Shown piece by piece: positions 47,219 through 64,000 of a stretch of 64,000 nt of DNA. This stretch comes from Aeoliella mucimassa (GTDB lineage: Bacteria > Planctomycetota > Planctomycetia > Pirellulales > Lacipirellulaceae). Position numbers and translations under genes: made by a program. Where the stretch lies: positions 1,922,001-1,986,000 of the forward strand of contig NZ_CP036278.1 of assembly GCF_007748035.1 (NCBI RefSeq), read 5' to 3'. The notes below the pieces were generated by a model that saw nothing but the letters and a program-made list of their open reading frames with translations, did no database searches and was not told the origin of the DNA. Numbering within the stretch: the stretch's first letter is position 1; each line of letters starts with the position of its first letter.

Positions 47219-48877
47219 TTATTGTTTGCGATCCAAGTGCCCCGACTTGTTGATCGCCCGCATGATGCGGATGCCGAGCATACCGCTGAGTACCATGCCG
47301 AGCGTGCCGGGTACCGAGATGCCATGCACTGGCCACACTTCGCGGCTGAGCATCAGCGACGAACCGAGGAACAGGGCGCTGGTCATCATGCCCATCACCA
47401 GTCGGTTGACCGACGGTTCGAGTCCCCGGTGATCGAGGTGTACGTCGAACTTGCCGCGCTGCACCTGTTCGAGAATCTCGCGTAGCCGCCGAGGAGCAAC
47501 TTCGGCAAGTTGCTCCAGCTCGCTCATCATGTTCCGCAGCTTGCGAGCCTGGCGTTTCGGCGACAGCCGCCTGCGAAAGATCTTCGTCCGATAAGTCTTC
47601 ACCAGCTCCATCAGCGAAAACTCTGGCTCCATCATCTTGGCCATGCCTTCGAGCATCAGCAGCGTTTTGATGAGCAGAGCAACCTGCGTTGGCAGCACGA
47701 TCTCGTATCGCCGGATCAGCTCGACAAACTCCGTGAACGCGCCCGACAGATCGAAATTGTCCATCGACTGATAGGCGTACTGTTCAACGAATGCACTCAG
47801 GTCGGTCGACAAGGCCATGTCGTCGAGCCCGGGAGGAGTCGCCCCGAGTCGCATGACTACGTTGGTTAGTCGCTCGGTATCGTGCGACGCCATGGCGACC
47901 AGCAGGTCTTCGACTTGTTCGCGAAGCGGGTCTCCCAAGCGGCCGACCATGCCGAAGTCCAACAGGCCGATCGCTCCGTTATCGAGCAGGATCAGATTCC
48001 CTGGATGCGGGTCGGCGTGGTAAAAGCCATGCTCGAAGATCATGGTCAGGTAGATCTCCGCGCCTCGGCGGGCGTACTCTGGCAACCGCACCTTGGCCGC
48101 GGGGTCTTCGACCACCGACGACAGCTTGCGGCCGTTGAACCACTCCATCGTCAGCACTCGCTGCGTGGAGAGTTCGGGGTACACCTTTGGCACGCTCACC
48201 AGTGCGTCGTCGGCAAACATGGCATCGAACTGCTGCTGGTTACGAAGCTCAAGACCAAAATCGAGCTCGCGACGCATCATCCGTTGCAGTTCGGCCATCG
48301 TCGATTGCAAGCGATACGGGCGCAGCTCGGGCAAACGCTCGGCCAATTGGGCCAGGCCCGAGAGTATCTCCAGGTCGACATGCACCTGCTTTTCAATGCC
48401 GACGTGCTGCACCTTGACGACCACCTGCGTGCCATTGGTAAGGGTGGCACGGTGCACTTGTCCGATCGAAGCCGAGGCGAGCGGCTGGTGCTCGAACGTT
48501 GCAAAGCAATCCGCGATCGACCGGCCGAGCTCCTTCTCGATCAACGCGACGACGTCGTCGGTCGAGTCGGCAGGCGTGTTTTGTTGTAGGTTGGTAAGCT
48601 CATCGGCAAGCTTGAAGCCTACCTGGTCGGGCCGTGTGCTGAGTACTTGTCCTAGCTTGATGAACGTCGGCCCGAGCTCTTCGACGGCCAGGCGAATGCG
48701 CTCTTCGTGCCCGGCTCGTATCAGTGGTTGTCCCTGGCGGTTCGTCAGGAAGTTCGAGCCGAAGCTCAACCCGAGCCGACTGGCCCACCCTGCGAGTCCG
48801 TACTTGCTCAGTACCGACAGAATCTCTTGCCAGCGCCAGAAGTAGCGATTGATCTGTGGAATCGTGGAGATCTTCAT
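47219..48877 (-). CDS. UbiB/AarF/ABC1 kinase-like protein
   Basis: 552 residues from MKISTIPQINRYF. It carries the family signature: FIKLGQVLSTRPDQVG (the KxGQ motif), PLASASIGQVHRATLTNGTQVVVKVQ (Ala-rich nucleotide loop, here ASASIGQ), and HADPHPGNLILLDNGAIGLLDFGMVGRLGDP (metal site). Two hydrophobic C-terminal segments (LVMGMMTSALFLGSSLML, GTLGMVLSGMLGIRIMR) anchor it in the inner membrane. The family is required for ubiquinone or other isoprenoid quinone metabolism, with ATPase activity. An extended N-terminal reading to 48907 was rejected. Confidence 0.93.
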   Translation of the reverse strand: MKISTIPQINRYFWRWQEILSVLSKYGLAGWASRLGLSFGSNFLTNRQGQPLIRAGHEERIRLAVEELGPTFIKLGQVLSTRPDQVGFKLADELTNLQQNTPADSTDDVVALIEKELGRSIADCFATFEHQPLASASIGQVHRATLTNGTQVVVKVQHVGIEKQVHVDLEILSGLAQLAERLPELRPYRLQSTMAELQRMMRRELDFGLELRNQQQFDAMFADDALVSVPKVYPELSTQRVLTMEWFNGRKLSSVVEDPAAKVRLPEYARRGAEIYLTMIFEHGFYHADPHPGNLILLDNGAIGLLDFGMVGRLGDPLREQVEDLLVAMASHDTERLTNVVMRLGATPPGLDDMALSTDLSAFVEQYAYQSMDNFDLSGAFTEFVELIRRYEIVLPTQVALLIKTLLMLEGMAKMMEPEFSLMELVKTYRTKIFRRRLSPKRQARKLRNMMSELEQLAEVAPRRLREILEQVQRGKFDVHLDHRGLEPSVNRLVMGMMTSALFLGSSLMLSREVWPVHGISVPGTLGMVLSGMLGIRIMRAINKSGHLDRKQ

Positions 48878-48988
48878 CGCAAGGCCGGGCGAGGGGGGGG
48901 TAAACAAAAGACGTCATAGCCATTTTAGTTGAGGGGAGGGCCGAGGACAAAAAAGGTTGGGTTGTTCTGTTTCGAGCGATTGCAGCAG

Positions 48989-54821: not shown

Positions 54822-54907
54822 CGTTACAGAAGCGATCGATACAGCTCGAGCGTGGTCTCGGCCATTTTCTTCGCGTGGTACCGATCGACCACCGCGGCGT
54901 GGCCTCG
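54822..54907. repeat. direct repeat, right copy (intact glycosyltransferase end)
   Basis: The other half of the 86-bp imperfect direct repeat. It contains the true 3' end of the glycosyltransferase and its stop codon. Confidence 0.9.
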
Positions 54908-56104
54908 GGTGCCGAGTTCTTTTCGCAGGTCGGCGTCGACCAGTAGTTCGGCCAGGCGGCCGGCCAAGTCGACCGGGTCGTGCGGCACGTGCAGCATTCC
55001 GCCAGAGGTGTCGGCTACCATTTCGGAGAAGCTGCCATGGTCGGGCAGCACGACTGGCACACCGTTGGCCCAGGCTTCGAGCACCGGCAGGCCTTTGCTC
55101 TCGGCATACACGGTTGGTAGCGAAAATACGCTGAGCGATTTGAGGAAGGCGAGCTTGCCGTCGCGATCGAGTTCGCCAAGGTATTCGAATCGCCCCGCCA
55201 GCGGGCCATTGGCGATGCGACGCTCGAGGTCGGCAAGGTAGGGCTGGTCGGACTTGCCAAGGTAGCCGACCGCCTGGATCTTAAAATGCAGCTCCGGCGC
55301 GGTCTCGGCCAGGTGTTCGCAGGCTTCGATTAGTAGGTGCAAGCCTTTGTCGTGACAGATGCGGGCCAGGTACCCCACGATCAGATCGTCGCTTTGTGGC
55401 TCCGCTGGTCCATGCCCCGCGAGGTCGAGCCCGTGCGGCACCACGTGCATCCGCTCGGGAGCGACCGCCAGGTATTCGCTCATGAAGTTGGCGTAGTACT
55501 CGTTGAGCGATACGAACGCGGCCACGTCGCCCGCCCGCTCGCGGATCAGATCGCGAGCTTGCTGGTAGTAGGGGGGAGTGAGCTTTTCGAGAAAGATGTC
55601 CTCGCCCGACAGCGAGCAAACCACCGGCGGGCCACATCGCTCGGCGATCAGTTTGGCGAAGCCAAGTAGCATGGAGTTCGACAGGTGCACCACATCGGGC
55701 TTGGCGACATCCACCAGCCAGTCGACCAGCTCCACGACCCCTTTGCGCTGGTTGCCGCTTTCGCCGCGGAGCATCGAGACGGTCATGTCGCCGAGCTTCG
55801 CGGGATCGACACTCGGCCCGCCGCGGGTGGCCAGCTTCAGCAGCCAGGGCTGATCGAATAGCCGATCGACCCACCGCGGCGTGTAGCGAAACAGCGGCAT
55901 CTTTTGCTGCAGGTACGAACTGATACCGCCGACAAACACCCGCGGCTGGCTCACGTCGACTTCGTCGGTGCGAATCGGCGTGTAGGTCGGCACCAGCAGT
56001 ACGTCGTGACCGAGGTCCATCAACGCCCGGGCGAGCGTGTTGTCGTGCAGGCAGCTGCCGCAGTACATACCAGCGGCACCAGCAGCGATGTAGGCAATAC
56101 GCAT
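54824..56104 (-). CDS. family 4-type glycosyltransferase
   Basis: 426 residues. GT-B fold motifs: the N-terminal half begins MRIAYIAAGAAGMYCGSCLHDN, and the C-terminal half has VGYLARICHDKGLHLLIEAC, then VYAESKGLPVLEAWANGVPVVLPDHGSFSEMV, containing the EX7E-type nucleotide-sugar site of GT4. The sugar and acceptor are unknown. Its 3' 86 bases are duplicated at 53609. It lies 18 bases downstream of the symporter gene on the same strand. Confidence 0.9.
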   Translation of the reverse strand: MRIAYIAAGAAGMYCGSCLHDNTLARALMDLGHDVLLVPTYTPIRTDEVDVSQPRVFVGGISSYLQQKMPLFRYTPRWVDRLFDQPWLLKLATRGGPSVDPAKLGDMTVSMLRGESGNQRKGVVELVDWLVDVAKPDVVHLSNSMLLGFAKLIAERCGPPVVCSLSGEDIFLEKLTPPYYQQARDLIRERAGDVAAFVSLNEYYANFMSEYLAVAPERMHVVPHGLDLAGHGPAEPQSDDLIVGYLARICHDKGLHLLIEACEHLAETAPELHFKIQAVGYLGKSDQPYLADLERRIANGPLAGRFEYLGELDRDGKLAFLKSLSVFSLPTVYAESKGLPVLEAWANGVPVVLPDHGSFSEMVADTSGGMLHVPHDPVDLAGRLAELLVDADLRKELGTRGHAAVVDRYHAKKMAETTLELYRSLL

Positions 56105-56122: not shown

Positions 56123-57703
56123 TTAACTGGGGAAGAACTTCTGCAAGGTCGCGGTTGACGGTTTCGGGGTGATCAGCGAGACCACGATCAGCGAAATCGC
56201 CGAGGCCGCAAAGATGCCAGCCACTGGCATCAGCTCGTAGGTGGTCCCGCCGAGGGTGATATCGAGCGTGTAGGTGCGATCCGATCCGTAACCCGACGCG
56301 CGGAACAGGTAGAACCAGGTCGCGATGGTCGACAGCACGCAAGCGTACGCGCCCGCTTTGGTGAGCCCCCGCCAGTACAGGGCGGCGAACACCAGCGGGA
56401 ACAGCGAGGCAAAGCCGCTAAAGCACCAGACGCCCAGCGCAAACACACTCGGTGGCTCAAACAGACTGAAGCAGTACGTGACCGCGACGATGGCGATAAT
56501 GAATCCGCGGGTGATCAGCACCATGGTGCGGTCGCTGTAGCGATCATGCCCCATGTAATGGCCTACCATGTCGTTGCTGAACATGGTGCCGATGCAGAGG
56601 AACTGACTATCGAGGCTCGACATGATGGCCGCAAGCACGCCGGAAACCAAGAGACCGGAGAGCACGGGATCGGTCAGCGATTTCACCAGGAACACCAGTA
56701 CGCGGTTGGGATTCTCGGCAACAGGCGGGGGAATCATCACGATGCCCGAAGCGGCCCATACGCCGATCAGCACGCATGGCACCCACACGATCATAATAAA
56801 CAGTGGGTGGGCGACCACCGAGAGCTTGAAGCTATTGGCGCTTTTGGCCGTGAGCCAGTGCTGGAACAGATGCGGAAACATGCCGACCGACAGCGGGATA
56901 AACAAGTAGGTGAAGAACTGCGTCTGCGACATCTCCGCCCGGGTCGATTTCGACTCGGGTATCTGCTGGGAGAGCAATCGCAGGTTCTCCATCAAAGTGC
57001 CGCTTTCGCCAACCTTCTCGGCGAGCTTGTCGGAGAGCGTGTAAAAGGTAACGAGCCCTAACGCCATGAACACGATGGTCTGGAACGCATTGGCCCAGGC
57101 GGTGCCACGCATGCCGCCGAAGAAGACGTAAACGAGCACCACGCCGCAGATCACAAGCGAGGCAATCTCGCGAGGGACGCCGCCGTTGGTCGATTCGAAG
57201 AAGGGGAGGGCACCGAGTTCGGGTTTCCCCGGAGGGCCGCCGGTGATGGTCTCGACAACGCCGCCGGCCGAGATCACGCCGACTAGCAGGTAAGGAATCA
57301 CCAGACCGACGAGAATGGGGAACAGCAGCAGGCCGATCTTGTCGCTCTCTAAACGGTCGCGGAAGAACTGAATCTGGGTGGAGTAGCCGTTGTCGCGCCC
57401 GAGGGTCCAGAGCTTAACGCCGATGACGAAGAAGCAGAGCGAGTGGATGATACCGCTGCTGCTGGCCATCATGCCGTAGACGCCGATGCCTTCCTTGAAG
57501 GCTTCGCCGCTAGAGCCGACGAGCGCAAAGGCGGTCATCGTGGTGCCGAAAATCGACATCAACAACAGGAACGGGCCGATGCTATGGCTCGCGAGTTGGT
57601 AGTCTTCCTTGGTGCCGGTAAAGAGTCGGCTAGCAAACATGCCGAGCGCGAGCAGCAGGCCAAGGTACACACAAATGATAATCAGGGTAACTAGCGGGGT
57701 CAT
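56123..57703 (-). CDS. sodium:solute symporter
   Basis: 526 residues with about 13-14 membrane segments. It starts TPLVTLIIICVYLGLLLALGMFASRL; SSS-family features include FALVGSSGEAFKEGIGVYG, RGTAWANAFQTIVFMALG and LAAIMSSLDSQFLCIGTMFSNDM (the Na+-site helix). It imports an organic solute with Na+; the substrate is not determinable. The preceding gene overlaps by four bases, showing tight coupling. Confidence 0.92.
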   Translation of the reverse strand: MTPLVTLIIICVYLGLLLALGMFASRLFTGTKEDYQLASHSIGPFLLLMSIFGTTMTAFALVGSSGEAFKEGIGVYGMMASSSGIIHSLCFFVIGVKLWTLGRDNGYSTQIQFFRDRLESDKIGLLLFPILVGLVIPYLLVGVISAGGVVETITGGPPGKPELGALPFFESTNGGVPREIASLVICGVVLVYVFFGGMRGTAWANAFQTIVFMALGLVTFYTLSDKLAEKVGESGTLMENLRLLSQQIPESKSTRAEMSQTQFFTYLFIPLSVGMFPHLFQHWLTAKSANSFKLSVVAHPLFIMIVWVPCVLIGVWAASGIVMIPPPVAENPNRVLVFLVKSLTDPVLSGLLVSGVLAAIMSSLDSQFLCIGTMFSNDMVGHYMGHDRYSDRTMVLITRGFIIAIVAVTYCFSLFEPPSVFALGVWCFSGFASLFPLVFAALYWRGLTKAGAYACVLSTIATWFYLFRASGYGSDRTYTLDITLGGTTYELMPVAGIFAASAISLIVVSLITPKPSTATLQKFFPS

Positions 57704-57912
57704 ACGCCGGGCTCCTTTTTCTTTTCAAGCTCGGCGGGCCAGCAGAACAACGTCGCCAGAAACCAGGTAGCGGCAGCGGCAAGCGAGATGCACGCATGGT
57801 AGAACAAGCCGATCGGCATGAACCCGAACACCATGGTATCGCTGTTCCAATTCCAATTGTCTTGATGCAGCACCAGTAGGGCTGCGATGATGATCCACAC
57901 CGCTAATTTCAT
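57700..57912 (-). CDS. small SSS-associated membrane protein
   Basis: 70 residues from MKLAVWIIIAALLVLHQDN; an upstream extension was rejected. Two membrane segments are seen (LAVWIIIAALLVL, FYHACISLAAAATWFLATLF). The middle carries NWNSDTMVFGFMPIGLFYH, reminiscent of DUF3311/YhdT proteins that accompany sodium:solute symporters. It overlaps the symporter start by four bases, so it is probably a small accessory subunit. The end EKKKEPGV is polar. Confidence 0.78.
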   Translation of the reverse strand: MKLAVWIIIAALLVLHQDNWNWNSDTMVFGFMPIGLFYHACISLAAAATWFLATLFCWPAELEKKKEPGV

Positions 57913-58093
57913 ATGCCGCTCTTTGATGGGTAAGAGTCGCTGGCTCCAGGGAAACGAGCCAAGAGTGTACCACAACCGCCGGGGAGACTAAAGAAAAACT
58001 TGCTCAGGGCAAGTTGCCCCGTATGGCTTTCGCAGGACGACCGGTTCCCCATTGCCGTCCCGCAATCACTGAATCGGAAAACCTAACCACGCG

Positions 58094-59347
58094 CTAGGCG
58101 GGTTCTTCCATGGCCGACATCTGGCGATCGAGCCAGGGGTCGAGGTCGTCGAACATCATCGCAACGCCCGGCTTGAAGATGCGACCGATCAGCAGATCGG
58201 TCAGGTTGCCTTGGTGCTCGGGATGCTCCATCACAAACTTACCGACGCGGAACTCGCCGGAGTAAAACGCGTTGACCAGCTTGCGAACCGAATTCGTGGC
58301 CTCTTTGAACTCAGGACCCCACCCGCCGAGCTGAGCAGCCGAGGTGTCGCCGGTCGTAAGGGCCTGCGAAACGCAATCGGCAGCCAATGCGGCCGATTGC
58401 AAGGCGAAGTACACACCGGAGGAGTAAACCGGATCGATAAAGCCCCAAGCGTCGCCGACCAGCACCCAGCCGTCTCCGGCGATTTGATCGGTCGAGTACG
58501 AAAACTCCTTGGCGACCCGCAGGTCGTCGAGGGCTTCGGCACCCTGCACCCGCTGGTACGCCCCTTCGCACTTGGCGAGTTCCTGCTCGAACACCTCGGC
58601 AGGGGTACCGCGGCCTTTGAGCAGGTAGTCGTTATCGCCGACGCAGCCAACGCTTACGGTGTCGTCGGCTTGCGGGATGTACCAGAACCAGCACTTCTTA
58701 TCGCTGGTGTGCATGATGATGGTCTTCACGCCGCCGCCCGACTCGTCGCGTTCGGCGCCGCGGTAGTGCCGCCAGATTGCGGCCTTCTTGAGTTCGGGAT
58801 TCACCTGCTTGATGCCCAACTTGTTGGCGATCAGCGTTTGTTGGCCGGAGCCATCGATCACCACTTTGCAAGCGATCTTGTGTTCGGTACCGGTGCGGTC
58901 GATGAGTCGCACGCCGGTTGCGCGGTTGTCGTCGAATAGCACGTCGGCCACGCGCGTTGCATCGTGGCAGTGAGCCCCTTTGGTCGCTGCGTTTTCGAAC
59001 AGCATCTGGTCGAACTCACTGCGGTCGACGTGCCAGGTTTCGCTGCAGGGACGAGGGTCGTGCGTGCGGAAGAAGAAAGGTTGCGACTCGCGGCCGGTAT
59101 TGTTGACGAATTGCACGCCAACTTTGCGCGGGAAGCACGATTTGTTGAGCTGTTCAAGCACGCCCAATCGTTCGAATACCCAATAGCTTTCGGGCATCAG
59201 CGACTCGCCGACGTGTTCGCGAGGCATTGGCTCGCGTTCGACTAGTAGCACCGAGTGGCCTTGCTCGGCAACCAAAGCGGCGGCAGTCGAGCCCGCAGGG
59301 CCGCCGCCGATGACCACACAATCGTATTCGCTCAGCAATTCAGGCAT
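58094..59347 (-). CDS. halogenase-like FAD-dependent oxidoreductase
   Basis: 417 residues from MPELLSEYDCVVIGG. The FAD motif GGGPAGS is at 14-20 and VGESLMPESYWVFERLG at 46-62, as in flavin-dependent halogenases. K75 in FPRKVGVQF matches the region that carries the catalytic Lys of the PltA/CmlS-type halogenases. CWFWYIP fits the WxWxIP halogenase signature and GDAWGFIDPVYSSGVYFAL is the second FAD-binding motif. These point to a halogenase or a related flavin monooxygenase/reductase. It lies seven bases downstream of the chorismate-lyase-like gene. Geranylgeranyl reductases are an alternative family, less favoured by the WxWxIP motif. Confidence 0.82.
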   Translation of the reverse strand: MPELLSEYDCVVIGGGPAGSTAAALVAEQGHSVLLVEREPMPREHVGESLMPESYWVFERLGVLEQLNKSCFPRKVGVQFVNNTGRESQPFFFRTHDPRPCSETWHVDRSEFDQMLFENAATKGAHCHDATRVADVLFDDNRATGVRLIDRTGTEHKIACKVVIDGSGQQTLIANKLGIKQVNPELKKAAIWRHYRGAERDESGGGVKTIIMHTSDKKCWFWYIPQADDTVSVGCVGDNDYLLKGRGTPAEVFEQELAKCEGAYQRVQGAEALDDLRVAKEFSYSTDQIAGDGWVLVGDAWGFIDPVYSSGVYFALQSAALAADCVSQALTTGDTSAAQLGGWGPEFKEATNSVRKLVNAFYSGEFRVGKFVMEHPEHQGNLTDLLIGRIFKPGVAMMFDDLDPWLDRQMSAMEEPA

Positions 59348-59354
59348 TGTCCGA

Positions 59355-59957
59355 CTAAGGCACTGGGTAAACTTCGGGAATTGGTCGGGGGTGGTCAGTG
59401 ACGATCTCAAGCACTTCTACAGCCCGCCGACCATCCAGGTGGATGACCGCCAGACGACCGTAGATTACGTCGTCTGGCTCCAGGGCCAGGGGTACTCGGA
59501 GTTCGTCGGTGGGTTCGATTCGCCACAACGCACGCAGCTCCACATGGCGGAGCAGATTGTTGCGGATCAACACACGACCTAACGGACCGCGGTGGGTTTG
59601 TATGGCGTCGCGAACCTCCCAAGGCAGACCCGCGGTCACCAAACGTACAATGCCGTATTGTACGACTGCTCCATCCGATTGACGAGCCAAAAGACTTTGC
59701 CGGGCGTAGAAATCGTGCTCGATGGTTTGCCGAACCACTGTGAGCGTCACCAGGGTCTCGAAATAGGCCTCGAGCGTCACGGTCATGTGATCTTCGTGGG
59801 CGAGCAGCGTGGCATAGCTCGAAGGTAGCTGTTGCTCGCCAACCGGCTCGAAATGGCCCATATTCTGCAGCCCATCGTGGAAGAGTTGGGCGAGAGTTTC
59901 GGTGTCCTCCCATCTCGACCGGCTGATTTCGGCGGTAATTCCGGTCGGCTCAGGCAT
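59355..59957 (-). CDS. chorismate-lyase-like protein
   Basis: 200 residues from MPEPTGITAE; a longer reading to 60110 overlaps the preceding gene and was rejected. The family core is recognisable: AHEDHMTVTLEAYF, then VVRQTIEHDFYARQSLLAR, QYGIVRLVTAGLPWEVRDAI, GPLGRVLIRNNLLRHVELRALWRI. The Arg/Glu residues that bind chorismate in UbiC (here R86 or R92 and E140) and the PLGRVL turn are present. UbiC splits chorismate into 4-hydroxybenzoate and pyruvate. The similarity is distant, so the fold is more certain than the reaction. Confidence 0.75.
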   Translation of the reverse strand: MPEPTGITAEISRSRWEDTETLAQLFHDGLQNMGHFEPVGEQQLPSSYATLLAHEDHMTVTLEAYFETLVTLTVVRQTIEHDFYARQSLLARQSDGAVVQYGIVRLVTAGLPWEVRDAIQTHRGPLGRVLIRNNLLRHVELRALWRIEPTDELRVPLALEPDDVIYGRLAVIHLDGRRAVEVLEIVTDHPRPIPEVYPVP

Positions 59958-60027
59958 GTGCGCGTTCGTCCTTTCGCAGCAGCTGGAATCGGCAGACGCG
60001 GAGAGCAGCATGAGTCGGGGGGGCTGA

Positions 60028-60939
60028 CTACTTACCCGCGGCCGGGTGGGGGGGCCAACTGCCATCGGACGAGAGCGTACTAAACAAGTACTCCACGCCG
60101 CGGCGGACAATCGGACCGGAGGTTTGGCCGATGCTGGCCAGGCTTAGGATCACCAGGCTGGTCACGGCCACCGAGTCGCCGAAACCGCCATCCTTCTGCT
60201 GTTGCGATCGCAACCAGTCGTGCACTTGTTGGTAAGCACGGCTACGACGCCACAGCGTGAGTGGGTTCAGTGGTTTGCAATTGTGATAACTGGCCAGTCC
60301 CAATGCAATCAGCGCGGGAGTGATCGATCCGCGATCGGCCCAGAAAACCGGGCGAGTTGCATTGCCATCGAGCGGAAAAGTTTCCACCGGAATCGTGGGT
60401 AAGTACTGGCAGTCGAGCACTTCGGTCAACGCGCTAATACCGCGGGCGAGCAGCGTGGCGTTGTGAAAGGGCCCATAAGTCACGCGTAACTGGTCGAGGC
60501 CGTTGTTACGCTTGATGTATTGATTGATACGATCGACCAAGTCGGGGTAAGCAGCAGGGGCACCCGTGAGTTGGAATGCCGAGCGAACCATAATCGTGGT
60601 GAGCAGATTCGAGGGGGCCGAGCAATCGGTCGCGATGCCGCTGTATCCACCATCCTTCTGTTGATGGCGAGCCAGCCAGTGGACCGAGCTAACAATTACC
60701 TCGCTCAGGTCGGTTTGATACGCCGAGTCAAACTCGTCGTCGGTCTCGGTCTCCGGCAGTTCATGACCGTGCTGTTCCGACTGCACCAACGCTCCGACCG
60801 CAGCGGCGGTGGCAACCACAGGGCTATTCCACTCGCGCAACCAGTCATCCGTGGGACAGGACGAAGGAGTCGCGAGTACCGGAGACTTCCGCAGTAGGCT
60901 GCCTGCAGGGGCAACCGCGGTAACTGTGGTGGAGAACAT
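60028..60939 (-). CDS. squalene-cyclase/prenyltransferase-repeat protein
   Basis: 303 residues. QW-type repeats of the terpene cyclase/prenyltransferase superfamily are visible: WLARHQQKDGGYSG, RSQQQKDGGFGDSVAVTSLVILSL and YLFSTLSSDGSWP. The size is that of one alpha/alpha barrel, about half a squalene-hopene cyclase, and the sequence ends soon after the last DGSWP. No DXDD acid motif of class II cyclases is apparent. It is 70 bases upstream of the chorismate-lyase-like gene, probably in one unit. Could be a structural or truncated relative of terpene cyclases. Confidence 0.72.
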   Translation of the reverse strand: MFSTTVTAVAPAGSLLRKSPVLATPSSCPTDDWLREWNSPVVATAAAVGALVQSEQHGHELPETETDDEFDSAYQTDLSEVIVSSVHWLARHQQKDGGYSGIATDCSAPSNLLTTIMVRSAFQLTGAPAAYPDLVDRINQYIKRNNGLDQLRVTYGPFHNATLLARGISALTEVLDCQYLPTIPVETFPLDGNATRPVFWADRGSITPALIALGLASYHNCKPLNPLTLWRRSRAYQQVHDWLRSQQQKDGGFGDSVAVTSLVILSLASIGQTSGPIVRRGVEYLFSTLSSDGSWPPHPAAGK

Positions 60940-61226: not shown

Positions 61227-61877
61227 TCAGGAATCGATGAATCCAGCGGCCACGCACGAACGGGTTAGCTCGGCCACCGATTGCACGCCCATCGACTTGT
61301 AAATCCGGCTCCGGCGGGCTTCGATCGTGCGAATGCAAACGTTCATCAAGCTGGCAATTTGCTTGTTCGGAACCCCATCGAGCACGTACTTCAGCACCGC
61401 TCGCTCGTTGTCCGAGAGTCCTTCGATGCGGGCGGCCAGCTCGCGGCGAGTCGCGTTGCGGGTGGCTTCCTTACGACCAAGAGCCAACGCCTGGTCGATC
61501 GCGTCGCGTAGCTGATTTTCGCAGCAAGGCTTCTCCAGCACATTCACCGCGCCCATTCGCATGGCGTCGACTGCCATCGAGGTCGTGGCGTAAGCCGTGA
61601 CCAAAACAGCCGGCATTTGCAGGTTATCGTTACGCAACTGACGCAGCAGTTCGCAGCCATTCATGCCAGGGAGCTGATGGTCGAGCAACAAGCAACTTGG
61701 CTGATCGGAGTCGACGTTTTGCAAAAATTCTTCGGCCGACCCATAGGTCACGACCTTGGCTCCGGTCGGGCGAATCAACTCGCCGAGCGCCTCGCGGGTG
61801 CTCTCATCGTCTTCCACGATGTAGACCGTGTCGGTAGTTACTAGTTCTTCGGTGCTTGGGTTGTCTAATGCAATCAT
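61227..61877 (-). CDS. FixJ/NarL-type response regulator
   Basis: 216 residues from ATG at 61877. The receiver domain reads VYIVEDDESTREALGELI, LLLDHQLPGMNG (phospho-acceptor Asp) and AVLVTAY with a final EKPC. The C-terminal LuxR-type DNA-binding HTH reads LSDNERAVLKYVLDGVPNKQIASLMNVCIRTIEARRSRIYKSM. The protein should be a transcription factor controlled by a histidine kinase. It has a sister gene about 300 bases upstream on the same strand. Confidence 0.92.
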   Translation of the reverse strand: MIALDNPSTEELVTTDTVYIVEDDESTREALGELIRPTGAKVVTYGSAEEFLQNVDSDQPSCLLLDHQLPGMNGCELLRQLRNDNLQMPAVLVTAYATTSMAVDAMRMGAVNVLEKPCCENQLRDAIDQALALGRKEATRNATRRELAARIEGLSDNERAVLKYVLDGVPNKQIASLMNVCIRTIEARRSRIYKSMGVQSVAELTRSCVAAGFIDS

Positions 61878-62179
61878 CAATCGGGTTCCAGCTACTCAAC
61901 AGTAAAAAATCGACTCCCCCAGGGGGGGTGGTATCGTTGAGGAGTACCAAGGGGAGTGGGGCGATCCGTGTCGATCGCTCAATCGGGGGGGGAAGCCGCA
62001 TCTGGCGGCCGGTCGCAGAGTGATTTCCGTTCAGAAACTCATGTCTTCCTGCGACTAATACAACAATACGACCCAATCCCCGAGGTTTTTAGAGAGGGAA
62101 ACCCGCGGAATCGTGTGAGTGACCACATGCGGTGTGTGGCTGGCCGAATCAAGTGGACCTGTGGGGCCTCAATCTACCC

Positions 62180-62794
62180 TTACTGCTCCGCTTCAACCAC
62201 AATTTTTACTAGTTCTGCTACGGAATCGGCCTGTAGCTTCGTAAATACGTGCTGACGGCGGACCTCGACCGTGCGGACACTAATATCGAGCGAGGTCGCG
62301 ATGCGTTTGTTGGGTTCGCCGGCGACGATGAGGTCGAGCACCTCTTTCTCGGCTGGCGTCAGCTGATCAATTCTTGCTCGCAATTCGGCTCGGCGAGTCT
62401 CGCGACGATAATTTTCTTCGTCCCGGGCTAGTCCTTCGCGAATGGCGTCCCACAGTTCATGCTCGCGGCATGGTTTTTCGAGCAGTGTGACCGCCCCGTT
62501 TTTAATCGCTCGCACCACGATCGGCGTATCTGCGTAGGCGGTCACCACGACCACCGAAATGGTAATGCCTCGGCGTTGCAGTTCTTCCTGCAACTCCAGT
62601 CCGCTCATCTGCAGCATCCGCACGTCGGTCACCAGGCAACCAGGCCGCGCTCCATCGTAGGTCTCCAGGAATTCCTCGGCCGAGGCGTACGCGCGGAACG
62701 GCACCTTCATCTCGGCGAGCAATGTCTCCACCGAGTCGCGAGAGTCGTTGTCGTCGTCGACGATGTAAACGGTCGGGGTATCAGCCACGTTCAC
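62180..62794 (-). CDS. FixJ/NarL-type response regulator, second copy
   Basis: 204 residues from a GTG start. The receiver reads VYIVDDDNDSRDSVETLL, with phospho-acceptor Asp in LVTDVRMLQMSGLEL and VVVVTAYADTPIVVRAIKNGAVTLLEKPCREHEL. The LuxR-type HTH reads LTPAEKEVLDLIVAGEPNKRIATSLDISVRTVEVRRQHVFTKL. Its start overlaps the end of the kinase gene by 14 bases, so it is the likely direct partner of that kinase. It is paralogous to the regulator at 61227. Confidence 0.93.
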   Translation of the reverse strand: MNVADTPTVYIVDDDNDSRDSVETLLAEMKVPFRAYASAEEFLETYDGARPGCLVTDVRMLQMSGLELQEELQRRGITISVVVVTAYADTPIVVRAIKNGAVTLLEKPCREHELWDAIREGLARDEENYRRETRRAELRARIDQLTPAEKEVLDLIVAGEPNKRIATSLDISVRTVEVRRQHVFTKLQADSVAELVKIVVEAEQ

Positions 62795-64000
62795 GCTCCG
62801 AGTCGGAGGGGAGCAAAACAGAGAAGGTCATTCCATGGTCGGAGTTCAATTCTCCCCAAATCTTCCCATGATGACTAGCCACGATCGATCGACATAAGGC
62901 GAGGCCCATGCCCATGCCTTCCTCCTTATTGGTCTGGAAGGCGTTGAATAGCGGCTCGATTTCGGTGTCGGTAGTCAGCCCACAACCATTGTCTACCACC
63001 TGCATGAGGATTCGCTCCTCGAACGGCAACGTGCGAACGATCACCACTGGGCTGTGCGAACATTTTTCGGCTGCCATATGGCAGGCGTCAAACGCATTGC
63101 GGAGCAGATTGACGATGACCTGCTGCACCTGAATCCGGTCACCGATCACCGGGCTTAGCGATTCGTCGAGGTCGAACGACAGCCGAATGTTCTTGCAATG
63201 CGAGCCAAAACCAGGCATCTCGGCCGATTCGCGGATCAGTTCGTTCAGATCGAACTTGGCCATGCGTACCGGGCGAGGGCGAACAAATTCGCGCATGCGA
63301 CGAATGATGTCGGCCGCGCGATTGATTTGCTTCGAGATTTTCTGCACCATTTCGGCCACGCGGTCCATGCAATCGGGATCGCGATTCGAAATCGCCGTGT
63401 TCACGGCCGAGGCAAACGTGGCCGCTGCGTGGAGCGGTTGATTGACCTCGTGGGCGATGCCGGCCACGATCTCGCCCATCATGGCAACCCGCGACAGATG
63501 CGCCAGCCGGGCGTCGGCCTGTTGCAGGCGTTCGCGGTCGGCCAGTTGGTCGGTGATGTCGCGATCGACCCCCACCATACGAAGCGGTTTGCTCTGGCCA
63601 TCGCGTTCGATCACCCGCCCACGGTCGAGTGTCCAGCGAAACTTATCGCCTGGCATCCGCACTCGGTACTCGCACTCGAAAGCAGTCGTACGCCCCTGTA
63701 GGTGGGTGTCGAGCAGTTCGACTACTCGCAGCCGATCCTCGGGGTGGATGAATGCTTGCCAGTCTTCGAGCGTCCAGATATTTGCGCCCGCGAGCAGCCC
63801 GCGATTCTCGAGCCAGTTGTCGCTCACATACACTTCGCCGGTGGTGATGTTCCAGTCGTAGAAACCATCGGCAACCGCGTCGATTGTCGACCGCAGCCGT
63901 TCTTCGCTGTTGGCCAGTGCTTCTTCGGCTGCCTTGCGTTCCATGGCATTCACGAATACTTCGCCGATGAGCCGCAGCAGATAGATCGTGTCTTTATTCC
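62781..64000 (-). CDS. PAS-domain sensor histidine kinase (partial, runs off the window)
   Basis: The frame is open at the window edge, so the start is missing. The residues before MNAMERKAAEEAL read LLRLIGEVFVNAMERK, like the end of a GAF domain. A PAS domain follows (LRSTIDAVADGFYDWNITTGEVYVSDNW) with PAC segment (FECEYRVRMPGDKFRWTLDRGRVIERD). The phospho-acceptor His is in GEIVAGIAHEVNQPLHAA; the ATP domain carries VQQVIVNLLRNAFDACH (N box), VVDNGCGLT (G1) and GMGMGLALCRSIV (G2). The layout matches FixL/NodV-type kinases. The ligand cannot be inferred. Confidence 0.93.
   Translation of the reverse strand, partial: NKDTIYLLRLIGEVFVNAMERKAAEEALANSEERLRSTIDAVADGFYDWNITTGEVYVSDNWLENRGLLAGANIWTLEDWQAFIHPEDRLRVVELLDTHLQGRTTAFECEYRVRMPGDKFRWTLDRGRVIERDGQSKPLRMVGVDRDITDQLADRERLQQADARLAHLSRVAMMGEIVAGIAHEVNQPLHAAATFASAVNTAISNRDPDCMDRVAEMVQKISKQINRAADIIRRMREFVRPRPVRMAKFDLNELIRESAEMPGFGSHCKNIRLSFDLDESLSPVIGDRIQVQQVIVNLLRNAFDACHMAAEKCSHSPVVIVRTLPFEERILMQVVDNGCGLTTDTEIEPLFNAFQTNKEEGMGMGLALCRSIVASHHGKIWGELNSDHGMTFSVLLPSDSERERG

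Follow-up and report, generated by a model that had tools for sequence, protein, structure and literature searches.

Linked chorismate-lyase-like and halogenase-like genes point to a candidate conserved aromatic pathway in Planctomycetota

Most known FADH2-dependent halogenases serve a single natural product and are usually read as strain-specific marks. Planctomycetes yield halogenated aromatics such as alichondrichlorin and 3,5-dibromo-p-anisic acid, and a 2025 review, in the part dealing with these compounds, states that the genes behind alichondrichlorin are not known (PMC12078418). In phenazine biosynthesis, a published gene table places ehpF, named in the griseoluteic acid route, next to ehpG (PMC11278526). 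Here we analyse a 64,000-nucleotide stretch of Aeoliella mucimassa (hereafter the window; positions 1,922,001 to 1,986,000 of contig NZ_CP036278.1), taken from a genome that is a single contig of 6,608,792 bases, in which three co-oriented open reading frames (ORFs) on the minus strand lie as an initial annotation of the sequence had described:

60028 to 60939, minus strand: CYC, a half-length squalene-cyclase-repeat protein of 303 amino acids (aa) with an ATG start and no DxDD motif (SQHop_cyclase_C and SQHop_cyclase_N)
59355 to 59957, minus strand: CL, a chorismate-lyase-like protein of 200 aa (ORF, predicted fold, conserved residues)
58094 to 59347, minus strand: HAL, a flavin-dependent halogenase-like protein of 417 aa (PF04820, 5.8e-30)

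For CL we used the ATG at 59955-59957, downstream of a TTG that opens the longest ORF of this frame, and for HAL the ATG at 59345-59347, where a TTG at 59410 opens the longest ORF. These starts leave 70 bases between CYC and CL (59958-60027) and 7 bases between CL and HAL (59348-59354), exactly the tight spacing first reported. The motifs named at that time, MTVTLE, PLGRVL, VGESL, FPRKVG and CWFWYIP, are all present in the window proteins and represent more than chance, since CL was matched in 119 of 146 Pirellulales genomes and its alignment of 41 sequences contains 18 invariant columns. The three-gene unit is thereby confirmed, with conservation exceeding chance. Literature searches, whose coverage excluded most subscription papers, returned no description of this gene set.

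With a confidence just past the halfway mark, we propose that CL and HAL act in a conserved aromatic pathway of Planctomycetota together with an EhpF-like aryl-acid adenylating enzyme (LIG), an aldehyde dehydrogenase (ALDH), an iron alcohol dehydrogenase (FeADH) and a HemN-like radical S-adenosylmethionine (radical-SAM) enzyme (rHemN). Judging by its fold and conserved catalytic positions, CL would remove pyruvate from chorismate to give 4-hydroxybenzoate, and HAL, to go by its motifs, may use FADH2, O2 and halide to halogenate the ring of 4-hydroxybenzoate or of a derivative. LIG, ALDH and FeADH would then convert an aromatic carboxyl to an aldehyde or alcohol, a step for which the chemistry of EhpF and EhpG is the basis and which homology to EhpF and linkage suggest, and the HemN-like enzyme, again by homology and linkage, could make a further change to the aromatic.

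The best-supported step is the membership of these genes in one pathway, on which co-occurrence, adjacency and a gene fusion agree. Using expectation-value (E) thresholds of 1e-3 for CL, 1e-60 (order) and 1e-100 (phylum) for HAL, 1e-100 for rHemN, 1e-60 (order) and 1e-40 (phylum) for LIG and 1e-90 for a polyprenyl synthase that recurs near CL, we found CL in 119, HAL in 116, the HemN-like gene in 114, LIG in 115 and the prenyl synthase in 98 of the 146 Pirellulales genomes. CL and HAL occurred together in 114 genomes, CL alone in five, HAL alone in two and neither in 25, while CL, HAL, the HemN-like gene and LIG were all present in 103 genomes and all absent from 23; six of the 116 genomes with HAL hold two matches. 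In another family, labelled f21, 59 of 61 genomes contain HAL at E 1e-30, one match being a fragment. Across a phylum-wide set of 294 genomes, HAL was found in all 60 with a strong LIG (a count that leaves out 17 of 77 LIG genomes; these 17 scored 155-232 bits, and none of them is in the HAL list) and in three further genomes without LIG, two of which score about 338 bits and may represent paralogues. Of the 44 phylum genomes with CL, 43 also had both HAL and LIG, and 39 of those are not members of Pirellulales.

Gene order, which the initial annotation had suggested comparing in other Pirellulales, was followed in 60 neighbourhood loci chosen to span families and not at random: the window, 40 loci out of the 119 matches in Pirellulales and 19 out of the 44 in the phylum set. 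HAL stands directly after CL in 26 of them, within and beyond the class of the window, and the two genes lie no more than 1 kb apart in at least 37 Pirellulales genomes (pairs identified by visual inspection of two tables). Immediately upstream of CL lies a gene for a DUF116-polyprenyl synthetase fusion in 25 of the 60 loci, for a HemN-like radical-SAM enzyme in 13 and for a cyclase-repeat protein in nine. Beyond the window's class the order runs symporter, LIG, ALDH, Fe-ADH, PQQ-repeat, HemN-like, CL, HAL, glycosyltransferase and thioesterase (for example in L122 and L123). In one locus (L254, 4934-7021, minus strand) CL and HAL are fused within a single ORF (695 aa), residues 41-217 forming the CL domain and 287-688 the HAL domain, with an Ala/Gly-rich linker between them; the HAL domain is 38% identical to the window HAL and scores 108.7 bits to Trp_halogenase, and a second locus from the same genus (L261) carries CL and HAL as separate adjoining ORFs. 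The fusion supports a shared route, although it comes from one genome in which a sequencing error at a stop codon is possible. Co-occurrence, adjacency on both sides of the class boundary and this natural fusion thus uphold the functional link between CL and HAL that had been suggested from the window.

The LIG gene adjoins the aldehyde and iron alcohol dehydrogenase genes, in the window genome as elsewhere, and a LIG profile built from 11 relatives matched EhpF (3hgu) at E 5.5e-63, positions 17-367 of 367 aligning with residues 15-369. The copy in the window genome scores 602 bits to this profile and lies with the ALDH, FeADH, PQQ-repeat and HemN-like genes at 5.853-5.860 Mb, about 3.9 Mb from the CL-HAL unit in contig coordinates. 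The earlier idea that the unit itself encodes a small pathway from chorismate holds for the CL-HAL link and fails for the extent of the pathway, whose better-linked partners reside in this distant cluster.

To CL we could assign a fold only through its relatives. The single sequence had no match among solved structures and, in a scan of genome contigs, found no relative; an alignment-based scan of genome contigs recovered 340 relatives, and the 80 kept are labelled as planctomycetes apart from three labelled only 'bacterium'. A profile search against solved structures placed 2nwi first at a non-significant E of 0.1, together with seven other weak matches. The AlphaFold2 model computed from the 41-sequence alignment reached a mean predicted local distance difference test (pLDDT) score of 94.1, and its top structural match was AF1396 (2nwi, DUF98; Z 17.1, root-mean-square deviation (rmsd) 1.9, 143 residues aligned), with UbiC bearing bound product (1g81) at Z 11.4, rmsd 3.4 and 144 residues aligned. 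An hhalign comparison with Escherichia coli UbiC (E 7.4e-6, probability 84) aligned R86 of CL with the UbiC arginine, along with the PLGR and GR motifs, and E184 pairs with the UbiC glutamate when one counts back from the last aligned pair of the structural comparison (191 to 162) and assumes no gap; we take R76 and E155 to be the catalytic residues of UbiC. R86 and E184 are kept in 64 of 64 aligned relatives, rows from beyond the window's class included. The model and these alignments support a predicted chorismate-lyase fold in CL, with arginine and glutamate at the UbiC catalytic positions. A score to another fold, named in the initial annotation as the outcome that would overturn its assignment, did not appear, DUF98 being the best match.

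HAL scored 105 bits to Trp_halogenase (PF04820; cut-off 21, 5.8e-30), and a 26-row HAL profile matched the solved halogenases 8zop, PltA, CndH, ChlB4 and CmlS over nearly the whole length. The window protein contains the FAD motif GGGPAGS, and the catalytic lysine (K73), WxWxIP and the tunnel motif FxxPxxSxG, which is our reading of the published Fx.Px.Sx.G, occur in 66 of 66 HAL rows, the lysine by a wider pattern where a stricter one had missed five of the 66. Passages in one source describe the lysine and WxWxIP as halogenase marks and name a glutamate of PrnA-type halogenases (PMC5945002), passages in another describe WxWxI and the tunnel motif for halogenases (PMC12871659), and both hold the tryptophan motif to prevent monooxygenation. 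These features bear directly on an alternative in which the pathway is the same and HAL acts on the phenolic ring as a flavin hydroxylase or oxidase, the product being a hydroxylated or quinone-like aromatic and not a halogenated one. Set against the motifs, and against the named halogenases that head the list of matching solved structures, are the scores of HAL to geranylgeranyl-reductase-type and QhpG monooxygenase models and to 3nix, a structure named merely flavoprotein/dehydrogenase, as well as a distribution so wide that it suits a housekeeping molecule better than a halometabolite and the presence, some 10 kb off, of a gene for a UbiB-like ABC1 kinase (over the cut-off for Pfam ABC1, under it for NCBIfam UbiB). 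Weighing the two, we consider a hydroxylating HAL rather unlikely. As a geranylgeranyl reductase HAL was rejected, its 151.2 bits to TIGR02032 lying below the NCBIfam cut-off of 158.8; the clustering with geranylgeranyl reductases lacking WxWxIP that could have undone the first assignment did not occur, and the flavoprotein keeps its description as halogenase-like.

Several results weigh against the proposed route from chorismate through CL to a halogenated aromatic. As a single sequence CL matched no Pfam family, PF04345 and PF01947 included, for which reason we name it chorismate-lyase-like and file it in neither UbiC nor DUF98. Three of the 41 CL relatives matched the Rv2949c-like/DUF98 profile (best E 0.0036) and three matched UTRA (best E 0.0018), while the model matched UTRA effector domains, which share the CL fold, at Z up to 12.7, exceeding the 11.4 for UbiC. 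The UTRA matches favour a reading of CL as a stand-alone UTRA-like ligand-binding protein and no enzyme, which we judge improbable in view of the higher DUF98 structural score (Z 17.1), the arginine and glutamate in every aligned row, the lack of a separate DNA-binding domain match in the 200-aa protein and the CL-HAL fusion, which suits an enzyme. For HAL, a glutamate equivalent to PrnA E346 is not at the usual place (DPVYSSG), going by the position within the motif that we presume for PrnA-type enzymes, nor is it there in the PltA and CndH alignments. The 66-row HAL tree also contains a separate clade of 27 rows (support 100/98) that was not seen adjoining CL. The Pirellulales-built profile detects no CL in 17 of the 60 phylum genomes that have LIG and HAL, and for 11 of these 17 a 64-row CL profile found none in the regions surrounding LIG or HAL either; in four of these regions (L248, L250, L251 and L259) HAL comes immediately after the HemN-like gene. 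Because the profiles found none there, CL would be dispensable or replaced in such genomes. Finally, the Fisher p-values for co-occurrence in the order and phylum sets ignore kinship. Taken as a whole, the earlier interpretation is partly supported.

The third gene of the unit raises the question of an isoprenoid step, which the initial annotation had thought possible. CYC scored 39.9 bits to SQHop_cyclase_C (cut-off 26.1) and 32.5 bits to SQHop_cyclase_N (cut-off 26.2); it is half-length and has no DxDD by pattern, so we do not count it as a class II terpene cyclase. Half-length cyclase copies also precede CL in five other loci (L031-L034 and L037), and other Pirellulales carry a full-length cyclase of about 675 aa near CL, with DxDD by pattern in 22 of the 26 full-length ones in the fetched loci. 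The window genome has a full-length homologue with DADDT at 3.261-3.263 Mb, which lies with a DUF116-polyprenyl synthetase fusion at 3.258-3.263 Mb, 1.3 Mb from CL. A meroterpenoid pathway, combining polyprenyl synthase, class II terpene cyclase, 4-hydroxybenzoate and HAL, would account for the synthetase and cyclase-repeat genes found directly before CL and for the DxDD motifs, and two loci in which HAL adjoins GcvH-like, ferredoxin, SPASM and polyprenyl-synthase genes (L257 and L258) keep the terpenoid link alive. We nevertheless regard this pathway as distinctly unlikely: CYC of the window is half-length and without DxDD, and the prenyl synthase is distributed differently. The synthase is lacking in 33 of the 119 genomes with CL and occurs in 12 that have no CL; of these 12, 11 belong to the 19 named members of a Pirellulales family labelled f17. 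For the window genome we reject an isoprenoid step through CYC, and the earlier suggestion finds no support here, the prenyl synthase lying 1.3 Mb off. The aromatic pathway proposed above, in which CYC has no assigned step, is the reading we retain.

The unit is flanked in the window by the following features:

47219 to 48907, minus strand: atypical kinase of the ABC1 type, UbiB-like, some 10 kb from CL
54824 to 56104, minus strand: group-1 glycosyltransferase (PF00534), a recurring neighbour of CL loci, any pathway role being hypothetical
56123 to 57703, minus strand: sodium:solute symporter (SSF, PF00474), a recurring neighbour of CL loci, any pathway role being hypothetical
57700 to 57975, minus strand: DUF3311 small membrane protein (PF11755, 1.1e-12), a downstream neighbour that recurs in other CL loci
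57997 to 58015, minus strand: terminator-like stem-loop with a T run just behind HAL, from a consensus scan alone
61227 to 61880 and 62180 to 62794, minus strand: two LuxR-type response regulators (Pfam), upstream of the unit
62781 to 63953, minus strand: PAS histidine kinase (Pfam), upstream of the unit

The scan gave six terminator-like sites against 3.3 +/- 2.0 in shuffled sequence, which makes it weak evidence for the stem behind HAL, and no tRNA gene turned up in a scan of the window. Together with CL, the UbiB-like gene could conceivably belong to a ubiquinone-type pathway. The arrangement of regulator pair and PAS kinase upstream of the unit is shared with the five same-family loci that have a half-length cyclase copy before CL. 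Genes of ABC, permease, thioesterase, DMT-like and PaaK-like types recur as neighbours of the loci compared.

Some observations stand apart from the argument. In 11 of the 27 loci of the HAL clade not seen beside CL, one gene family lies directly upstream of HAL, both of the members that we scanned with Pfam being MarR regulators:

Loci with the MarR-type regulator family directly before HAL: L209, L211, L212, L213, L215, L217, L222, L225, L237, L240, L242

The full-length cyclase of the window genome belongs to a row (L106, 3.2535-3.2627 Mb) of genes for a GcvH-like protein, a SPASM radical-SAM protein, the DUF116-polyprenyl synthetase fusion, a 297-aa prenyltransferase-repeat protein and the DxDD cyclase, and parts of this GcvH-like/SPASM/prenyl-synthase/cyclase row recur across Pirellulales. 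The GcvH-like protein has a lysine at what we take to be the usual lipoyl position. In the 19 named genomes of f17 none of CL, HAL, the HemN-like gene and LIG was found, and the prenyl-synthase fusion is kept in 11.

What sets this system apart is one halogenase found across most of an order (116 of 146 genomes) and of another family (59 of 61 in f21), in association with a chorismate lyase and a module for aryl-acid reduction. We entertain, tentatively and with more doubt than confidence, a bolder form of the proposal, in which the halogenase would belong to the core genes of several planctomycete lineages and, with CL, the EhpF-like module and the radical-SAM enzyme, would make a lineage-wide halogenated 4-hydroxybenzyl or 4-hydroxybenzoyl compound absent from f17. 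Such a compound could be a cofactor, a lipid head group or a signal, and planctomycete organohalogens, alichondrichlorin among them, might in that case branch off from a core pathway. If the pathway is real, its genes would give direct access to a lineage-wide aromatic molecule not yet described, and would be a candidate origin of the halogenated 4-hydroxybenzoates of planctomycetes.

Compared with described systems, CL resembles UbiC (PF04345) and the DUF98/Rv2949c-like proteins (PF01947) in its predicted fold, in the arginine and glutamate at the catalytic positions and in the PLGR and GR motifs, whereas it differs in matching neither Pfam model and in having no ubiA adjoining it, in contrast to E. 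coli. LIG resembles EhpF of griseoluteic acid biosynthesis in an almost whole-length match and in adjoining an aldehyde dehydrogenase gene as ehpF adjoins ehpG, but no phenazine genes were recognised among the typed neighbours, and LIG is presumed to act on a benzoate, not on a phenazine. HAL shares with the FADH2-dependent halogenases PltA, CndH, CmlS and ChlB4 a near whole-length profile match, the FAD motif, the lysine, WxWxIP and FxxPxxSxG, and departs from the PltA/CndH group in its presence across most genomes of the order and of f21 and in its linkage to CL, LIG and rHemN. The proposed product, through a gene link that is hypothetical, would resemble alichondrichlorin and 3,5-dibromo-p-anisic acid in combining a halogen with a 4-hydroxybenzoate-type structure and in its planctomycete origin.

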